Part shown: one piece after another, positions 16,536 to 29,036 of the stretch
Position numbering within the stretch: position 1 is the stretch's first letter
Layout: every line of letters starts with the position of its first letter
From: Nitrospirota bacterium
GTDB taxonomy: Bacteria > Nitrospirota > Thermodesulfovibrionia > Thermodesulfovibrionales > JdFR-88
Assembly (NCBI GenBank): GCA_014874185.1
Contig: JACWAF010000042.1
Coordinates: forward strand, 1-34,745
Reading direction: 5' to 3'
Length of the DNA stretch: 34,745 nt
Program-made: the position numbers and the translations under genes
The notes under the pieces: generated by a model
Databases searched by the model: none
Seen by the model: the letters and a program-made list of their open reading frames with translations, nothing else
Told to the model about the DNA's origin: nothing

Positions 16536-16838
16536 CTATCTCCTTTTTGATTTGAATATCCTTCTAAAAGTCTCGACAGAAGGCACGTTCACGAGCCTCC
16601 CGGACTCGTCCGCGAACATCCTTCAGTAAAACCCGGCAATATCTGCGGGCTGGACCTCTTCGCCGTCCACGAATACCGAGGGCGAGCCCCGAAGCCCCCT
16701 TTCAGCGGCTTCCACGTCGGTTACTCGGGAAAAACTCACTTCGGCCTCCAGTCCTTCAAACCCAAGGGCCTTTTTTATGTTCTCTTTCAAAGCGGCTTCG
16801 GAGCCGCACCTTTCGGACATGTAGCAATCTATTCTCAA
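16536..16838 (-). CDS. Thioredoxin-like selenoprotein (UGA at codon 72 read as selenocysteine)
   Basis: A conventional reading stops at TGA 16623-16625 after 71 residues. The same frame stays open for 28 more codons to TAG at 16536-16538. The extended 100-residue protein has a complete C-terminal segment: ADIAGFY-U-RMFADESG then NVPSVETFRRIF. This looks like the C-terminal redox and helix region of small thioredoxin-fold proteins in which a cysteine stands at this place. Other features are C5 and C11 near the N-terminus and a GSPSVFVDG cis-proline loop. The start is TTG 16838, preceded by GGAGG at 6 nt spacing. A SECIS-like hairpin follows the UGA. I recall small '(seleno)proteins' of this kind beside such permeases, but cannot verify that here. 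Confidence 0.8.
16579..16625 (-). promoter_or_regulatory. Candidate bacterial SECIS element
   Basis: Starting at the UGA codon, the minus strand can fold as nested stems: GAAGG/CCTTC, GTTC/GAAC, ACGAG/CTCGT and CC/GG, with a bulged U between the last two and a GGGA apical loop. The first loop G is 22 nt after the UGA. A bulged U below a small loop starting with GG is also a feature of the E. coli fdhF element. This fits the known spacing window for bacterial SECIS hairpins. Confidence 0.7.
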
Positions 16839-20788: not shown

Positions 20789-22042
20789 TCAAAACTCGTA
20801 TCTCACCTGAACGTACATGTTATTATCCCGGGCCAGTTGACCGAACTGGCTTGACCTGTTTCCGCCCCCGAAGATGTTGCTCCCCAGGGCGGCCCAGATA
20901 TGGTCGGTGAAGTTGTACTTCACCTCCGGGTTCAGCATGTAATCGCTGACGGCAGGGCTGTAGAACATGAAAAAAGACAGCCTCAATGTCTGATGCCGCA
21001 ATAACTTGGTGAGTCTCAAACTGGTCAGGTCCTGGTATCTTTTTTCAGGTGAGAACCCCTGTGGCAGGCTTTCCAGATAATGCGAGTAGTTGTGCATGTA
21101 TTCGAAATAATATTGAACTCCCAGCGTGAAATCCTCCCATAACTGCCTCTGATAGCCAACGAGAAATCGCGTCTGGGAGTTCGGGATCAGCGGATTCGTC
21201 CCGCTCCTGTCCTGTCTCGAATCGTAATAGCCCGCCTCAAGGCTCAGTACTCCGCCAAGGGCCTGTCCCTGGGCGCTTGCTCCGTATTCAGATAGCTCTG
21301 GATAAAAGAGGGTGAGCCTGGTTGGCGTCTGAAAATTGTCGGGGAGTGGCGAGGGCTGCCTGAAAAACCCCCGGTAAAAATAGACCGAGGTGTCGAAGCC
21401 CGCAATCTGGCGGTATGCGCGCACCGCCAGCTCCGTATCTTTCAAACTCACCGGGGGTTCTTCTTTTTCCCTGGCTGTAACCTGCGGGAAAGGATCGAAT
21501 ATCCAGAACCTGTTTGGAGAAGGGTAGACGTTCGGCGTAAAGAAGGGGATGGCAACGACATCGAAGGAGGCAAAGCCCGGATAGAGGCCGAACTTCGCGG
21601 CATCCACGCCTTTTTTGAGATACTCAAGCGGCCTGCCCGAAAAAAACGCCTCGTAGTCCTTGGGGAATACATCGTTTATGAAGATGAGGTCTCCCACCCC
21701 CCAGGTGATTATCTGCCTGCCGATCTGCGCGTCCCATTTGTTGGCGGTATATTCGACAAAGCCCTCCCTTAGTTCCGCATTAAAATCCTGGTCTGTCCAG
21801 TCGTGGAAGCCGTCTGTCTTGATGAACACGCGGAACGGGCCCTTGTTCGCATCGAGTTTCAACTGGACGCGCTCTTCCGCCCATTTGAAGTTCCCGCCAT
21901 CGGGATTTCCCTGCGCGATGTCAAAGGAGTAATTCCCCTGCAAAAAGCCCCCGAGGCTTACGTCCCCGGCCAGGGCGTTCGCGCATAAACAGGATAATAT
22001 CAGAGCGGCCGCAAGCGCGATGGATTTCAATTTAAAACTCAT
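20789..22042 (-). CDS. Outer-membrane beta-barrel protein (DUF1302-like)
   Basis: This protein of about 417 residues has a clear signal peptide (KSIALAAALILSCLCANALA, cleaved before GDVSLGG). Alternating hydrophobic and aromatic strands follow, and the C-terminus ends in VRYEF, typical of outer-membrane barrels recognised by BamA. The region KWDAQIGRQIITWGVGD resembles DUF1302/porin-like proteins found beside MMPL-type RND transporters. ATG 22042 is preferred because it directly starts the signal peptide; ATG 22066 overlaps the preceding gene but has its GGAG touching the start codon. It is the last gene of the operon and probably forms the exit or uptake channel for the same substrate as the MMPL exporter. 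Confidence 0.8.
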   Translation of the reverse strand: MSFKLKSIALAAALILSCLCANALAGDVSLGGFLQGNYSFDIAQGNPDGGNFKWAEERVQLKLDANKGPFRVFIKTDGFHDWTDQDFNAELREGFVEYTANKWDAQIGRQIITWGVGDLIFINDVFPKDYEAFFSGRPLEYLKKGVDAAKFGLYPGFASFDVVAIPFFTPNVYPSPNRFWIFDPFPQVTAREKEEPPVSLKDTELAVRAYRQIAGFDTSVYFYRGFFRQPSPLPDNFQTPTRLTLFYPELSEYGASAQGQALGGVLSLEAGYYDSRQDRSGTNPLIPNSQTRFLVGYQRQLWEDFTLGVQYYFEYMHNYSHYLESLPQGFSPEKRYQDLTSLRLTKLLRHQTLRLSFFMFYSPAVSDYMLNPEVKYNFTDHIWAALGSNIFGGGNRSSQFGQLARDNNMYVQVRYEF

Positions 22043-22053
22043 TCGCTCCGCTG

Positions 22054-22842
22054 TTAATCTATCCATCTCCTTGGGGGCTGTTTCAGGAACCTCTCGGAAA
22101 AAATATTGTCCGGCAGGCCGATGTTGTAATCGGCCTTTGTGAAGGAGACCTCCGTCCTGTGGCCGCTCTGAATGTTCTTCATCGTCCTCTTCGTGATTGT
22201 GGGGAACCCCTTTACGTTCTTCACCTCGTCGGCGGTAAACACCTTATAGAGCTCGCCCCGCCTGTCGTAATACTCTTCCTTCATGGGCAGGAAGTCGGCC
22301 TTATCGACCCAGGAGAGTTTATAACTGTACTCCACGTCGCCTGCCTTTGGCGTGCTCTTTACCACATAGCAGTCCCTTGCGCCCAGTTTCTCCTCCCGGA
22401 CAAGGGAGTGCGTATCGTCGTTTACGTTCCTGCCCGAGACGTCCTCGTAAGAGAAGTCCGAACCCACGAAGCTAGACCGCTTGTCCTGGGCGGCGATCCG
22501 CCTCACCATATTGAGGGCCGGGATGAAGAGCCATCTGTCGCTGTCCCGGTCGGGGTACTTGTAGACCATGAAGGTCATGTCCTTCACGTCCGCGGGCTGG
22601 AAGAAATAAATGAAGTATTTCTGGTTGCCGCCGGGGGGGCCGTAGTTCTTCCGGAGCATGGTAAGCTCCCTCGTCCTCTCCTGCCCGCCCGCGCTTATGA
22701 GCTTCATGATCATCCTCGCCTTGAAGTCCCTGCCCTGATAGTAGAAGGCCGCCTCCGATTTCGCCATTATCTCCTTAGGGCTAATGGCGAAGACATTGGC
22801 CGGCAGAAGCATAAAAAGAAAAACAGCAGCTAAACGTCTCAC
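22054..22842 (-). CDS. LolA-like outer-membrane lipoprotein-sorting family protein
   Basis: This 262-residue periplasmic protein has a signal peptide (cleavage after ANVFA, about residue 19). The LolA/LolB-like fold family is recognisable from blocks such as YYQGRDFKARMIMKLISAGG, YFIYFFQPADVKDMTF, DRWLFIPALNMVRRI and SSFVGSDFSYEDVSGR. Members commonly sit next to MMPL/RND genes and are thought to carry hydrophobic molecules across the periplasm. It overlaps the exporter gene by 4 nt at a GTG start (GTGA) with a good AAAGGAGG upstream. The cargo is unknown. Confidence 0.88.
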   Translation of the reverse strand: MRRLAAVFLFMLLPANVFAISPKEIMAKSEAAFYYQGRDFKARMIMKLISAGGQERTRELTMLRKNYGPPGGNQKYFIYFFQPADVKDMTFMVYKYPDRDSDRWLFIPALNMVRRIAAQDKRSSFVGSDFSYEDVSGRNVNDDTHSLVREEKLGARDCYVVKSTPKAGDVEYSYKLSWVDKADFLPMKEEYYDRRGELYKVFTADEVKNVKGFPTITKRTMKNIQSGHRTEVSFTKADYNIGLPDNIFSERFLKQPPRRWID

Positions 22843-25172
22843 TTTGGTCCTCCTTTAAAGAGCCAGCCGCGCAAAAGCGTTATCAGCGCGGGCAGATAGA
22901 TTATGGTCAGGAGCGAACTGAGCATCATCATGCTCACGATGAAGGCCCCAACCGTGATATACGGCGTGAGGGGGGCAAACAGCATCACAGAGAACGCGGA
23001 GGCAAAGAGCACGGCATTTCGCATGATCCCCTTGCCGGGCCTGGCCGCGGTCCACAGGAGCGAATCCACTATCTGCTCCTTCTCCGGATTGCCCTCTCCG
23101 GCAACCTCCGCCAGCCGCCTCTTGAACCTGCTTACAAAATGGATGGCAAAGTCTATCGCCATGCCCAGGGAGAGCGTGGAAAGAACTGAAATAGGCATGT
23201 CGAAGTCCTTTTTCATAAAGCCCACCACGCCGTAGATGAGCAGTATGGTAAATAGGAGAGGCACATACCCGATAAGGGCCCACTTGAAAGAGCGGAAATT
23301 GAAGGCGAGTATGATAAAAACGATTACGAGGGCCGCTATGAACCCCTTCAGCATGTCCCACAGCACATCGTCGTTCCAGACGAGATTGAAATAGGCTATC
23401 CCGGCGGGTTTGAACTCCATGGCTATGGGGTGGGCTTTTTTGTATTCACCGGCCGCCCGGATCACATCCCTCATCGCCTGGGCATCCCATGTCTTCAACT
23501 GCACCCATATGTTGGCCCGCCTGAATGGGTAATCCACCATATTGTCCAGGTCGGAGGGCTTTGCGGACATGCTGAAAAGAAACAGGTACTGCCCTATGGT
23601 CTCCTTGGAGTCCGGGATGGTGTCGAACTTCGGGTCGTCATTGTGGAGTACGAGGTTTATCCTCTTCACGTAATCCGCGACCGATGTGGTCTTGCCCACC
23701 ACCGGAAGCCTTTCCAGGTATCTCTGAAGCCCCTCGATGTATCTCATGGCCTCGGGCGTCTTTATGAAATCGTCCTCGTTGGCTATGCCAACCATGTACC
23801 CCAGCGACGTGCCTCCCAGGGACCTGTTCAGCACCCTGTCCGCGGTCCTTATGCCGCTGTGGTACTTGAACCACTCTATGAGGTTGTTGTTGACCACAAT
23901 CCTTGATGTCCCGGCCACGGCGAACGCAAACAGTATAAGCCCAAAGGCGACAACCGCCTTGGGTTTCCTTGCACCCAGTCCCGCAAGCCCTCTCAGCAGC
24001 CTGCCCGTCCTGCCGGAGCCGGCATCCTCCCTCTCAGAAACACGCCGGAGCTTTTCCGTATTCACGAAGGTGAGAATCGCCGGCACCAGGGTGAAGCTCA
24101 TAAGCAGAAGGGCCAGCGTTCCAAAGCCCACCCCCAGCCCGAAGACCCTTACCGGTATGATGTTGGCCAGCATCAAGGAGCCAAACCCCACGGCGGTCGC
24201 CACATCGGTATAGATCAGCGGGACACCGACGGCCTTCATCGTATCAAGGATGGCCGCATTCTTATCTTGTCTTTCCCGGTACCTGAAATAGAACTCGTTG
24301 AATATATGTATGCTGTCCGTGGCTATCGCCATCAGGAAGACCGGGCTCATGGAACTCATTATGTGGATCGGGTATCCAAGCCCGATAATGAACCCCAGGC
24401 TCCAGATGATGATCACCATAGCCGGGACCATTATGGAGAAGGACAGGAATAGGCTTCGGAACATCAAAAAGGCCACAACCAGCATCACCATGCCCGCTAT
24501 GGGCGAGAACACACCCATCAGCTTGAACATCTCGGCCCCGAATGTGTCCCTTGCCACCGGGTCGCCCGCAATATAATATTTTTCGCCGCCGTCTTCTTTT
24601 TTTACGATCTCCCTGATGCGGTCGGCCACCTGCTTGCCGTTTGCGCCCTCTTCAAGCGGGACGTAGATGGCCGCTGTTTTGCCGTCTTTCGATATGATGC
24701 GGTTTATGAAAAGGGGGTTTGCGAAGAGGTCCCTCCTGAGAGCGCTCATCCCGGCATCCGTCTTGGGGACGTCCGTCATAAGCGGGCCCACTTTCAGCAT
24801 TCCGCCATCGACCGATACGTTGTCGATAGTGGTGAAACTGGATACATCCCGCGCGGCAACCCCCTTCATCCTTAGTATCGCATCGGTTATATTCCGTATC
24901 CTGCCCAGTGTGCCCGTGTTCAGTATGCCCCTGCCGTTCACGATGCCAAGGACGATGGTATCTTTGTAGAGGCCGAACGTCTTTTCCACCTTGTCATTCC
25001 ATACCCTGACATCCGAGGTGGCTGGGAGCATGTTCTTGGGGTCGGTGTCCGTCCTCATCTTCGGGAACTGGGTCATGAACCCGACGGTGATCAGCAGGAC
25101 AATGGCGATGACCAGTTTCGGGTGATTAACGGAAAAACCGGTCAGGGACTCTCTTATGGCGCCTTTCTTCAT
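22839..25172 (-). CDS. MMPL/HpnN-type RND transporter
   Basis: This 777-residue inner-membrane transporter consists of two repeated halves. Each has one helix, a periplasmic domain and a block of five helices. Both halves carry the RND helix-4 signature region (FLMAIATDSIHIFNEF and LGMAIDFAIHFVSRFKRR). The family exports lipids, hopanoids and other hydrophobic compounds. It is half the size of the AcrB class and needs no HlyD adaptor, which agrees with the LolA-like carrier and barrel that follow. The start is ATG 25172 with AGGGAG 6 nt upstream, 14 nt after the sqr stop. Its placement behind sqr and tus-like genes suggests a sulfur-related cargo, but this is inference. Confidence 0.9.
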   Translation of the reverse strand: MKKGAIRESLTGFSVNHPKLVIAIVLLITVGFMTQFPKMRTDTDPKNMLPATSDVRVWNDKVEKTFGLYKDTIVLGIVNGRGILNTGTLGRIRNITDAILRMKGVAARDVSSFTTIDNVSVDGGMLKVGPLMTDVPKTDAGMSALRRDLFANPLFINRIISKDGKTAAIYVPLEEGANGKQVADRIREIVKKEDGGEKYYIAGDPVARDTFGAEMFKLMGVFSPIAGMVMLVVAFLMFRSLFLSFSIMVPAMVIIIWSLGFIIGLGYPIHIMSSMSPVFLMAIATDSIHIFNEFYFRYRERQDKNAAILDTMKAVGVPLIYTDVATAVGFGSLMLANIIPVRVFGLGVGFGTLALLLMSFTLVPAILTFVNTEKLRRVSEREDAGSGRTGRLLRGLAGLGARKPKAVVAFGLILFAFAVAGTSRIVVNNNLIEWFKYHSGIRTADRVLNRSLGGTSLGYMVGIANEDDFIKTPEAMRYIEGLQRYLERLPVVGKTTSVADYVKRINLVLHNDDPKFDTIPDSKETIGQYLFLFSMSAKPSDLDNMVDYPFRRANIWVQLKTWDAQAMRDVIRAAGEYKKAHPIAMEFKPAGIAYFNLVWNDDVLWDMLKGFIAALVIVFIILAFNFRSFKWALIGYVPLLFTILLIYGVVGFMKKDFDMPISVLSTLSLGMAIDFAIHFVSRFKRRLAEVAGEGNPEKEQIVDSLLWTAARPGKGIMRNAVLFASAFSVMLFAPLTPYITVGAFIVSMMMLSSLLTIIYLPALITLLRGWLFKGGPK

Positions 25173-25186
25173 CCGGTCTCCCTGAT

Positions 25187-26374
25187 CTATGGCAGACGGC
25201 TCAGGCCGTGCTTCATCTTCCAGAGGAAGTATTTCTCGAAACCCATCTTCAGGTACCTGTACCGCAGGCCCATCTTCGTCACCGACTCCTGCCTTGGGGG
25301 CAGGACGGGCGAAGCCTTCATCAGTGCGGCGGTATTGCCCATGTCCATGAGGCAGACCACATCGAGTTCTTCCGGGCGCGGAGGCGTTTCGTTTTTGATC
25401 TCGGCCGCGATGGCGGCCGCGGCGGTCTTTGCCATCTTCACGGTCATGAAGCCTGTCTTCGGGACGCCGACCGGGACCGGCGTGGGTTCCGGAGGGGCTA
25501 TCGCCATGGCCACTCCCACAACGAAGATGTTTTTGTGTTTTGTGTGCCTGTAATTTTTGTCCACGGGGATGAACCCCCTCGGGTTGCCAAGCGCAGCCAC
25601 GGCGGGGACCCCCTTGAAGGGCGGGGCTATCATGGCGAACTTGAAGGGCAGTTTTGTGCCGTCCTTTAGCTTTATTTCGCCTGGGACAACCTCCTCCATG
25701 GCCCCGTTTACGATTGCCTTTATCTCCCTCTCCGCAAAGGCGTCCCCGAAGGATCTTTTGGAGTTCCCAAGCCCGCCCACACCCATATGGCCCAGGTAAG
25801 GCTCTGAGGTGAGATATATGATGGGGACCCTGTGCCTCATCTTGCGCCTCCTTAGCTCAGTGTCCATCTCATAAGCCAGTTCGTAAGACGGGCCGAAGCA
25901 GCTCACCCCCTGTGCGGACCCGACGACTACCGGCCCAGGGTCTTCGAGCAGCTTCTCCCAGGCCAGGTGTGTCTTTACCGCATGGTCAAGCGTGAAGGTG
26001 CAATTTGTATGGCCGCCCTCGGGGCCGAGGCCGGGGACTTCATCGAACGAGAGGAAAGGCCCGGTTGATATTACAAGGTAGTCGTAAGCTAATTCCCCAC
26101 TGGCCGTAAACACCTTGGAGGTTTCGGGCTCCACCCTGAGGGCCGCCTCGTGAACGAAATTTATTCCCTTAGGGCCAAGCATTCCGGCCACTTTTAATGT
26201 AATGTCCCCCGGCCTTCGGTGGCCCATGATGAGCCATGGCAGGGAGGGCAGGAAGACGAACCTGTCGTCATCGCTTATTACGGTGATTTCCGCGCTTTTG
26301 CCCAGGTGCCTTTTTAATTCAAAAGCCGCCGTGAGCCCGCCAAAAGAGCCCCCAAGAACAATAATCCTCTTCAT
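25187..26374 (-). CDS. Sulfide:quinone oxidoreductase-type flavoprotein
   Basis: This 395-residue FAD enzyme of the SQR/flavocytochrome c family oxidises sulfide to polysulfide and passes electrons to quinone. The FAD motif GGSFGGLTAAFEL is at the N-terminus. Three cysteines fit the catalytic set: C125, C159 (in GVSCFGPSYE) and C341 (in VVCLMDMG), comparable to Cys124, 156 and 347 of the Aquifex enzyme. A second flavin segment KNIFVVGVAMAI and a C-terminal amphipathic region (FEKYFLWKMK) for membrane attachment are present. It follows tusB-like by 52 nt in the same operon. Other members of the superfamily, such as NADH dehydrogenase 2, lack these cysteines. Confidence 0.88.
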   Translation of the reverse strand: MKRIIVLGGSFGGLTAAFELKRHLGKSAEITVISDDDRFVFLPSLPWLIMGHRRPGDITLKVAGMLGPKGINFVHEAALRVEPETSKVFTASGELAYDYLVISTGPFLSFDEVPGLGPEGGHTNCTFTLDHAVKTHLAWEKLLEDPGPVVVGSAQGVSCFGPSYELAYEMDTELRRRKMRHRVPIIYLTSEPYLGHMGVGGLGNSKRSFGDAFAEREIKAIVNGAMEEVVPGEIKLKDGTKLPFKFAMIAPPFKGVPAVAALGNPRGFIPVDKNYRHTKHKNIFVVGVAMAIAPPEPTPVPVGVPKTGFMTVKMAKTAAAAIAAEIKNETPPRPEELDVVCLMDMGNTAALMKASPVLPPRQESVTKMGLRYRYLKMGFEKYFLWKMKHGLSRLP

Positions 26375-26426: not shown

Positions 26427-26705
26427 TTAATATGCGCCCTGAACGGCTTCATCCCCGGTTAAAAGATCGATTAGTTCATCGTAGGTTATCCCTTTTATGC
26501 TGTTGGCCGTTTCGTGCGAGAGCCCCCTCATCCTGGTGTCTTCCTCAAGGAAATAGACCTTCCCCTTGAACGCCTTTATTTCTTTTTCCTGAAGAAGATA
26601 GACCGCGTTCTGGATCAGGACAAGATCGGCCTCCATATAACAGGCCAGCTTGAATGCCTTCCTGCTCTCCGGTGCATCGGGCGCGCTTTTTATCATCACC
26701 AGCAT
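26427..26705 (-). CDS. TusB/DsrH-like sulfur relay subunit
   Basis: This 92-residue cytoplasmic protein resembles DsrH/TusB, the smallest member of the DsrEFH/TusBCD sulfur-carrier complex. Supporting features are the length, the N-terminal MLVMIKSAPD, the segment ADLVLIQNAVYLL and the order of genes behind tusD- and tusC-like neighbours. The start is ATG 26705 with AAGGAGG 9 nt upstream. In the classical complexes this subunit's role is mainly structural; I see no conserved C-terminal cysteine here. Confidence 0.78.
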   Translation of the reverse strand: MLVMIKSAPDAPESRKAFKLACYMEADLVLIQNAVYLLQEKEIKAFKGKVYFLEEDTRMRGLSHETANSIKGITYDELIDLLTGDEAVQGAY

Positions 26706-26718
26706 CTCTCCGGCCTCC

Positions 26719-27072
26719 TTAAAAAACCATCGTTACATAGGAATTTTTTAAAATCTGCGCGACCTCCCTGCTGTCGGCTATCCTCGAGCCCTCCACCAGG
26801 TCCTGAAGCTTCAGGTTGCGGGCCTCCAGCGAATCCTTGTCGGCATAGACCGCCACACCCATATCCATGCAGTCCGAAAGCCCGGACTCTATGCTCGCGT
26901 ATTTGGTGCCGGATATGTCCTGCCCTTTTTTCAGGGCGCTCACCCCGCCGCCGATCAATATCAAATTTACCGGGATGTCCATTGTCGCGGCCCCCATTGC
27001 GTGCCGGATTGCCTCGGAGGCGTCCACGCAGCCGTATGGGGGCTTTCTGAGTATTACGCTTACGGTTTCCAT
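26719..27072 (-). CDS. TusC/DsrF-like sulfur relay subunit
   Basis: This 117-residue DsrE-fold protein has the pattern RKPPYGCVDASEAIRHAMG, then MDIPVNLILIGGGV and MDMGVAVYADKDSL, corresponding to TusC/DsrF. Cysteines at 15 and about 88 could carry persulfide, though catalytic transfer in the family rests mainly on the TusD/DsrE subunit. It starts at ATG 27072 with GGGGGAG upstream, 17 nt after the tusD-like stop. It probably forms a heterocomplex with the two neighbours. Confidence 0.8.
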   Translation of the reverse strand: METVSVILRKPPYGCVDASEAIRHAMGAATMDIPVNLILIGGGVSALKKGQDISGTKYASIESGLSDCMDMGVAVYADKDSLEARNLKLQDLVEGSRIADSREVAQILKNSYVTMVF

Positions 27073-27089: not shown

Positions 27090-27434
27090 TTATGTCCCGA
27101 AATTTAAAAAGACGGGTTTGGTCCTGATCACGTCGAACAGCCCCTTCAAAGAGCTCATCTCGCCGCCCTCGATGGAGTCCTCAGCCGAAAGACCTCGGCC
27201 TTTCATGCACCCCGTTCAGATGTCAACCTTCAGCCCCCTGCCTACCAGGTCCTCCAGGGCCGACAATGCCTGCGGCACCTGGCCCTTAACGATGGAGAAT
27301 ACCCCGTCTCCGCTGGTTATAAGCCTTACTTTATGGCCCTTGTTTAGCGCTGCATCGGCTATTTTGATGATGGTATGGGTGTTCTCGTAAGTATAAGGAG
27401 TGGTCGTCAAGAACATTGCTATCTCTTTTTGCAT
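27090..27434 (-). CDS. TusD/DsrE-like selenoprotein (UGA at codon 73 read as selenocysteine)
   Basis: A conventional call ends at TGA 27216-27218 after 72 residues, a truncated DsrE domain. The same frame continues to TAA at 27090-27092 and gives 114 residues, the normal TusD/DsrE length. The continuation is VDI-U-TGC-MKGRGLS and then GGEMSSLKGLFDVI, matching the family's active site, where a cysteine (VxxCxxCxKxRG) takes up persulfide sulfur. The UGA therefore falls on the first residue of a U-x-x-C motif (U73, C76). A SECIS-like hairpin follows. The start is ATG 27434 with GAGGAGG upstream. DsrE-like selenoproteins have been reported in metagenomic selenoprotein surveys, as I recall. The likely role is sulfane-sulfur transfer with its two neighbours. 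Confidence 0.85.
27174..27218 (-). promoter_or_regulatory. Candidate bacterial SECIS element in the tusD-like gene
   Basis: Following the UGA, the minus strand folds as a lower stem GGGGU/ACUCC, an internal loop, and an upper stem GGCCGA/UCGGCU (27200-27195 with 27188-27183) closed by the loop GGUCUU. The first loop G is 22 nt after the UGA. A loop starting GGUC is also found in E. coli fdhF. Confidence 0.75.
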
Positions 27435-27489: not shown

Positions 27490-27831
27490 TCAATGTTTTC
27501 TGTTGCCTGGATATTTCCCTTTCTTGGTTACGGGACAGCACGCCGGTGCGGGCAAAGACCCTTCATGCTCTTTTTTAAGCGCTTCGATAACTTCGGGGAT
27601 CAGCGGGTCCACAAGGAAATAGCACCTGAGCCTTCCGTCCACGTAATAATCGATTATCTTGTGGGCCCTTAAAAGAGAAAGGTGCTGCGAGACATTGGGC
27701 TGGGCTATATCGAGGAATTCCTCGAAGTCGCTGACGCATTTGACCCCTTTTGTCAGCTCATCCAGTATCTTTATCCTTGTCGGGTGGGCTATGACCTTTA
27801 ATATTTCAATCTTTTTCTCAAAGGAGTCCAT
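27490..27831 (-). CDS. ArsR/SmtB-family repressor of the sulfur operon
   Basis: This 113-residue winged-helix regulator has the pattern KVIAHPTRIKILDEL, then GVKCVSDFEEFLDIAQPNVSQHLSLLRAHKII and DYYVDGRLRCYFL. It has one cysteine in the recognition-helix region (C32), one in the wing (C70), and a C-terminal pair C98-C99. It lacks the ArsR CVC motif. Thiol-based ArsR-family sensors of persulfide (SqrR, BigR) also control sqr genes, so sulfide sensing fits the context, although this is inference. ATG 27831 is chosen because AGAGG lies 6 nt upstream, overlapping an earlier GTG. It is the first gene of the operon, 55 nt before tusD-like. Confidence 0.85.
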   Translation of the reverse strand: MDSFEKKIEILKVIAHPTRIKILDELTKGVKCVSDFEEFLDIAQPNVSQHLSLLRAHKIIDYYVDGRLRCYFLVDPLIPEVIEALKKEHEGSLPAPACCPVTKKGKYPGNRKH

Positions 27832-27857
27832 AAACACCTCTATTCATTCAAGTATGG

Positions 27858-28634: not shown

Positions 28635-29036
28635 CTATTTTGGAGCCCCCGGCGGAAGCGGCTTGGGGGTAACGGCCATACCCGGTTTCACCTTCTGGAC
28701 TCCCTCCACTACGACACGCTCTCCGGGCTCGAGGCCCTGGTCTATTACCCAGAGGCTCTCGAAGCGCTCCCCTGGCTTGACGGTCCGTATTTCCAGGGTT
28801 GACCGTGGAAACAATTGTCAGCAGACCCTGGGCCGGACCGACCAGATTGCCCACCTGCGCCCTGGCGAGCCCGGCAATGCCGCTGATGGGCGAAGTGATC
28901 CTGGTAAAGCCGAGGTTGAGAGCGGCATTCTCTACGGCGGCTTTCGCCGCAATTACCGCCGCCTTCGAGGAGCGCTGTGCCAATTTGGCTTGGGACAGGT
29001 CAGGCCGCCTTCTGTCGCCTAAAAAGATACTATCAG
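28635..29036 (-). pseudogene. Remnant of an RND/HlyD-type adaptor gene
   Basis: The minus strand first encodes an adaptor fragment (AAVENAALNLGFTRITSPISG then LARAQVGNLVGPAQ and LLTIVSTVNPG), which corresponds to the helix end and second lipoyl half of AcrA-like proteins. After a frame change near 28805 it encodes the family's C-terminus (EIRTVKPGERFESLWVIDQG, EPGERVVVEGVQKVKPGM, ending at TAG 28635). About 100 residues of the middle domains are missing, and the frame upstream is closed by a stop near 29037, so the N-terminus is lost. It is unrelated in orientation to the intact exporter operon that follows. Confidence 0.8.

Follow-up and report, generated by a model that had tools for sequence, protein, structure and literature searches.

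On the minus strand of the window (the whole 34,745-nucleotide stretch of Nitrospirota DNA analysed here), a reading frame that opens with an ATG at position 27434 runs, under table 11, for 72 codons to a UGA at 27218–27216. Beyond this UGA, the same frame continues for 41 sense codons to a TAA at 27092–27090. The locus raises two questions: whether the UGA is read as selenocysteine (Sec) rather than as a stop, and what a protein with Sec at this position might do. An earlier reading of the letters alone (hereafter, the sequence-only reading) had described the two-part frame, leaving its strand unstated, and had proposed a DsrE/TusD-like selenoprotein. The codon layout was confirmed, with the gene (27434–27090; here called Sec-DsrE) lying on the minus strand. 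The 114-residue read-through product, MQKEIAMFLTTTPYTYENTHTIIKIADAALNKGHKVRLITSGDGVFSIVKGQVPQALSALEDLVGRGLKVDI-U-TGCMKGRGLSAEDSIEGGEMSSLKGLFDVIRTKPVFLNFGT, has the normal length of a DsrE protein and carries Sec73 in a UTGC motif.

Sec-DsrE and its in-frame UGA

The read-through product was searched against DsrE families, as the sequence-only reading had suggested. It matches Pfam DsrE (PF02635) at 2.6e-13 over residues 5–103, with a score of 50.6 bits against a gathering score of 22.7, and the match crosses the UGA. Sec-DsrE is a member of the DsrE/DsrF-like family PF02635. Among NCBIfam models, including the TusD equivalog, no match was found; the earlier assignment to the DsrE family therefore stands, whereas that to TusD proper does not, the NCBI TusD model not being reached. 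A structure predicted from the alignment of relatives (mean pLDDT of 93.9) has its best fold matches in the PDB to YchN, a Sulfolobus DsrE/DsrF-like protein, TusD and DsrE, with TM scores of 0.84–0.86. Residue 73 is placed at the end of a strand with a helix right after it, such that the UTGC motif opens the helix. PDB matches to designed pentatricopeptide repeats, which are sums of many weak repeats, were dropped. The sequence-only reading had also pointed to Cys at this site in homologues. When Sec and Cys relatives are aligned, every row has one of these two residues at position 73, without exception, and Sec73 falls on the first Cys of the CKTC motif in E. coli YchN.

The UGA is conserved across genomes. 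A search of 396 genomes of the phylum recovered about 30 clade-1 relatives at 69–84% identity, each with one UGA, and all 44 clade-1 loci (69–84% identical) share the codon position of the UGA. Fifteen Nitrospirota contigs also carry Sec-DsrE relatives with a UGA, and the closest named relatives are all from Nitrospirota; the plasmid records searched yielded no relative. Throughout clade 1 the motif is U-(T/S)-G-C, with the UGA as codon 73 in every sequence, and frames on contigs that are long enough terminate at, or close to, the end point of the window gene. Compared with its relatives, the window gene has a median pN/pS of 0.17 on the 3′ side of the UGA and 0.16 on the 5′ side, a similarity indicating that protein-level selection acts on the 3′ part.

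These observations bear on the view that the UGA simply ends the gene, arose as a pseudogene lesion or a sequencing error, or is recoded throughout the genome. Under table 11, the 72-codon frame does end at the UGA. However, dozens of genomes assembled independently of one another have a UGA at codon 73, which rules out the sequencing error that the sequence-only reading had raised, and the pN/pS after the UGA argues against a stop or a lesion. Genome-wide recoding is excluded, given that 13 of the 29 window genes use UGA as their stop; moreover, homologues have Cys at this site rather than Trp or Gly. Taken as a whole, this explanation is extremely improbable.

Selenocysteine machinery was found in the source genome of the window (2.43 Mb in 42 contigs), as the sequence-only reading, which had suggested looking for selA, selB, selC and selD, would predict. 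A tRNA-Sec with a UCA anticodon is present, together with SelA (627 bits), SelB (360 bits, 628 aa) and SelD (348 bits), the gene for the last having a UGA of its own. In the genomes searched, selA occurs in 86 of the 92 with a UGA copy of Sec-DsrE versus 91 of the 304 others (Fisher p = 2e-29); the six UGA genomes that lack it are draft assemblies. Taken together, these sequence comparisons indicate that the gene at 27434–27090 almost certainly makes a selenoprotein.

A second Sec clade, about 45% identical, is present in about 60 genomes, nearly all with one UGA at the matching codon. The source genome has one Sec-DsrE copy from each clade. Its clade-2 copy, on contig 1 at 24786–25130 of the minus strand (L067:4790-5131), has the motif U-G-T-C. 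A double-Sec reading of this copy was rejected, its second UGA aligning with the normal end of the protein and being a stop. Four clade-2 relatives from one Nitrospirota family (L071, L075, L076 and L077) have Cys in a CGTC motif, and selA is present in three of the four genomes, which suggests that Sec is not indispensable. Two changes between Sec and Cys, either one gain and one loss or two gains, are needed in a tree of 90 proteins; the Cys of these four members could reflect a possible reversion from Sec or a Cys that was retained.

A SECIS-like hairpin after the UGA

Synonymous freezing, covariation and fold mark a SECIS-like hairpin, GGCCGA-GGUCUU-UCGGCU (27200–27183, minus strand), on the 3′ side of the UGA. 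Its 6-bp stem begins 16 nt after the UGA and its GGUCUU loop lies at nt 22; the sequence-only reading had located the loop correctly but had taken nt 22 for the start of the hairpin. Codons 79–84 are almost frozen at silent sites, and the adjoining codons vary. Gly81 is encoded by GGT in 33 of 34 genes, versus 54 of 379 for the other glycines of the same genes (p = 5e-24), and Leu82 by CTT in 30 of 34.

The covariation test proposed in the sequence-only reading was performed on the region after the UGA, and the pairs of the stem were found to covary. In the stem AGCCGC/GCGGCU (loop GGUCUU), compensatory changes occur at the second pair, as AGC...GCU, ACC...GGU and CUC...GAC. The covarying pairs are G-C/C-G/U-A at columns 20–35 and C-G/A-U/U-A at columns 24–31, the inner pair. 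The A-U version of the inner pair is that of the window itself, in which a change from GCG (Ala) to TCG (Ser) is matched by one from CGC to CGA. Across the alignment, 89% of stem cells are paired, versus at most 45% in slid versions of the stem, and 16 cells are changed on both sides, compared with 8.0 in shuffles, none of 500 shuffles reaching as high a count. A clade-2 hairpin, UUUCGC-CGUGCG-GCGAAG, is found in the same register, with weaker covariation. The clade-2 hairpin of the source genome has a CGGGC loop that lacks the usual GU, and its pairing may be shifted by one base.

Taken alone, the window hairpin has an unexceptional fold energy (z = −1.67, with 13 of 200 shuffles as good), and the SECIS assignment therefore rests on the comparison among relatives. 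A search of the region against Rfam gave no SECIS match. What the comparison provides is a conserved hairpin just 3′ of the UGA with a G in its apical loop, the features by which a SECIS is recognized. These features suggest that Sec is very probably inserted at residue 73 by SelB through the post-UGA hairpin.

The operon and a proposed sulfur relay

Sec-DsrE lies in a row of minus-strand genes. On its upstream side is an ArsR-family regulator (27490–27837), which adjoins Sec-DsrE in most relatives and whose cysteines 34, 72, 100 and 101 are invariant in 68 sequences. Downstream, 17 bp after the Sec-DsrE stop, is a gene for a TusC/DsrF-like protein of Pfam DsrE (26719–27072). It is followed by a TusB/DsrH-like protein (26427–26705) that matches Pfam DsrH at 1.7e-10 and keeps its position in relatives. 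The TusB/DsrH-like protein scores 42.1 bits against the TusB model, with a cut-off of 49.2, and the TusC-like partner is likewise under its NCBIfam cut-off. The last gene of the set encodes a sulfide:quinone reductase (SQR; 25187–26374) that matches the sulfide-quinone reductases 3hyv (1.1e-94) and 3sy4 (2e-90) of the PDB. Its Cys125, Cys159 and Cys341 are conserved in essentially all relatives (47 aligned sequences), and by sequence it is a true sulfide:quinone reductase. The possibility that SQR is a second selenoprotein (NF049943, SQR type III) was rejected: the score is 95.9 bits against a cut-off of 525, no in-frame UGA is present and Cys occupies all three conserved places.

The order ArsR, DsrE, TusC-like, TusB-like, SQR holds in most clade-1 and clade-2 loci on contigs that are long enough, so that this sulfide-oxidation operon is conserved across dozens of related species. 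The clade-2 Sec-DsrE of the source genome adjoins TusC-like and TusB-like genes of its own, and no SQR was found near it within the 10 kb fetched. Neither tusA nor yeeE/yedE was found in the Sec-DsrE operon. Downstream of SQR, on the same strand (20789–25172), are an MMPL/RND-type exporter, a LolA-like protein and an outer-membrane protein; the exporter also follows SQR in many relatives. At 28635–28928 (minus strand) lies an apparently broken remnant that resembles the C-terminal portion of a membrane-fusion protein of the RND type.

A second selenoprotein is apparent elsewhere in the window, at 16536–16838 of the minus strand, with its UGA at 16625–16623. The 100-residue product has U72 in the motif FYURMF and a TTG start after AGGAGG, and about 42 genomes of the order keep its UGA. 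The protein shows a relationship to NF049942, the 'DF family (seleno)protein' (42 bits, cut-off 70), and its gene has an ArsP-type permease on one side and an ArsE-type thioredoxin on the other.

Cysteine persulfides are regarded as the working intermediates of sulfur relays. The sequence-only reading had proposed a relay that uses Sec; the Sec gene and its operon support that proposal, and the chemistry is extrapolated from family and operon. From this context, it seems rather likely that Sec-DsrE serves as a sulfur relay, being a Sec version of the DsrEFH/TusBCD carrier that receives its sulfane sulfur from SQR. The DsrE fold, together with the conservation of three neighbouring genes, suggests that Sec-DsrE and its TusC/DsrF-like and TusB/DsrH-like partners would form a complex of the DsrEFH/TusBCD type. 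The SQR of the operon would oxidize sulfide to sulfane sulfur, and Sec73, at the active-Cys position of DsrE and TusD, would accept this sulfur as a seleno-sulfide (R-Se-SH). The sulfur could then pass to TusA or DsrC and on to DsrAB; alternatively, Cys76 could resolve the bond and so release it. Switching of the operon is probably the task of the Cys-rich ArsR regulator, in response to sulfane sulfur or a related thiophile. The source genome has eight TusA-domain matches, two DsrC-family genes, dsrA and another dsrA-like gene, probably dsrB, indicating that sulfur acceptors exist. A more specific version, in which the operon represents a selenocysteine-dependent third type of DsrEFH, fed by SQR, with no TusA in its own cluster and an R-Se-S intermediate, in Nitrospirota with dsrA and dsrC, is offered tentatively, at slightly less than even likelihood.

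A separate Cys-containing DsrE (CTCEAC) was observed on contig 30 of the source genome (~243450–244910; L160), beside DsrH-like and DsrF-like frames and tusA, an arrangement similar to the DsrEFH type II or YTD cluster. The presence of this set beside tusA in the same genome implies that the Sec set is not the sole relay and has a role of its own, which may be connected with SQR.

The main rival within the selenoprotein reading assigns the UxxC pair a redox role. Sec-DsrE would then work mainly in thiol or persulfide redox chemistry, as a UxxC reductase or persulfide reductase that guards the cell against sulfide, polysulfide or metalloids, rather than in delivery to DsrC and DsrAB. Sec commonly occurs in UxxC proteins of redox function (PMC13188914), and the UTGC motif opens a helix, as in thioredoxin-like redox sites. 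The ArsR-type regulator, the lack of TusA in the operon and the location of the Cys DsrE set beside tusA elsewhere are also consistent with such a role, as are the ArsP-like, LMW-phosphatase/arsenate-reductase-like and further ArsR genes elsewhere in the window. By contrast, the conservation of the TusC-like, TusB-like and SQR genes with Sec-DsrE points to a relay complex. Moreover, three distant Cys homologues keep Cys73 and lack Cys76, which argues that a disulfide pair is no family-wide need. We regard a mainly redox role as a credible but unlikely alternative.

The UGA might in addition act as a conditional stop, a reading compatible with either a relay or a redox function. At low selenium, the gene would yield either a product of 72 residues or nothing at all, and the genes after it would be translated less, placing a selenium gate on the operon. 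Sec genes are inherently selenium-dependent, the short gap of 17 bp between the stop and the next gene makes coupling possible, and the Cys set is a possible back-up. However, no regulatory sign is seen in the sequence and the spacing alone suggests the coupling; we consider such a gate improbable.

Returning to the sulfur relay, a conserved Sec at the transfer residue, in two paralogous clades and in an operon with SQR, raises the question of whether selenium speeds up or redirects sulfane-sulfur transfer. Sec-DsrE also links selenium supply with sulfide handling in the Nitrospirota that carry the operon.

Comparison with known systems

A 'DsrE-like protein, PF02635, UxxC' has been catalogued as a predicted selenoprotein family since about 2004–05, which qualifies the statement in the sequence-only reading that such a protein is rarely described: the family has long been listed, although only as a prediction (PMC1088965, PMC1794560, PMC9312934, PMC13188914). 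The catalogued members include a DsrE-like selenoprotein in Desulfovibrio vulgaris (PMC1794560) and the table entry WP_014524487.1 (PMC13188914). As compared by catalogue description, they resemble Sec-DsrE in belonging to PF02635 and in having a U-x-x-C motif, one Sec and a predicted SECIS directly after the UGA. They differ in being single-gene predictions, whereas the Nitrospirota gene belongs to an operon of DsrE-, DsrF- and DsrH-like genes with SQR. Among the papers open to search, none was found that assays any Sec-DsrE or that ties Sec to DsrEFH or TusBCD. The kind of protein is thus not new; what is new relative to the searchable papers is the complete Sec-DsrEFH–SQR operon across Nitrospirota, together with two paralogous Sec clades.

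DsrEFH type II of cable bacteria (PMC13293266) and type I of Allochromatium vinosum (PDB 2HY5) share with the present locus three DsrE/F/H-like genes in a row and the DsrE fold. The active residue lies at the equivalent place, being Cys67 in type II, Cys78 in type I and Sec73 here, and in type II this Cys is a proven sulfur-binding residue (PMC13293266). DsrEFH type II adjoins tusA and yeeE/yedE, whereas the Sec-DsrE operon has ArsR and SQR instead. In a 2026 survey of type II, Cys was found in 99.3% of sequences and the other 0.7% were ascribed to sequencing error; no word starting with 'selen' occurs in its text (PMC13293266). Because gene callers truncate DsrE at its UGA codon, recent DsrEFH counts could have missed a Nitrospirota class that contains this codon.

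TusBCD of E. coli (PDB 2D1P) likewise shares the fold and the three-subunit make-up, and TusD is among the best structural matches. It differs in that Sec-DsrE has no NCBI TusD match and that the TusC-like and TusB-like partners fall under their cut-offs. E. coli YchN (PDB 1JX7) is both the best true PDB sequence match, with its CxxC on the UxxC, and the best fold match, and it has Cys where Sec-DsrE has Sec.
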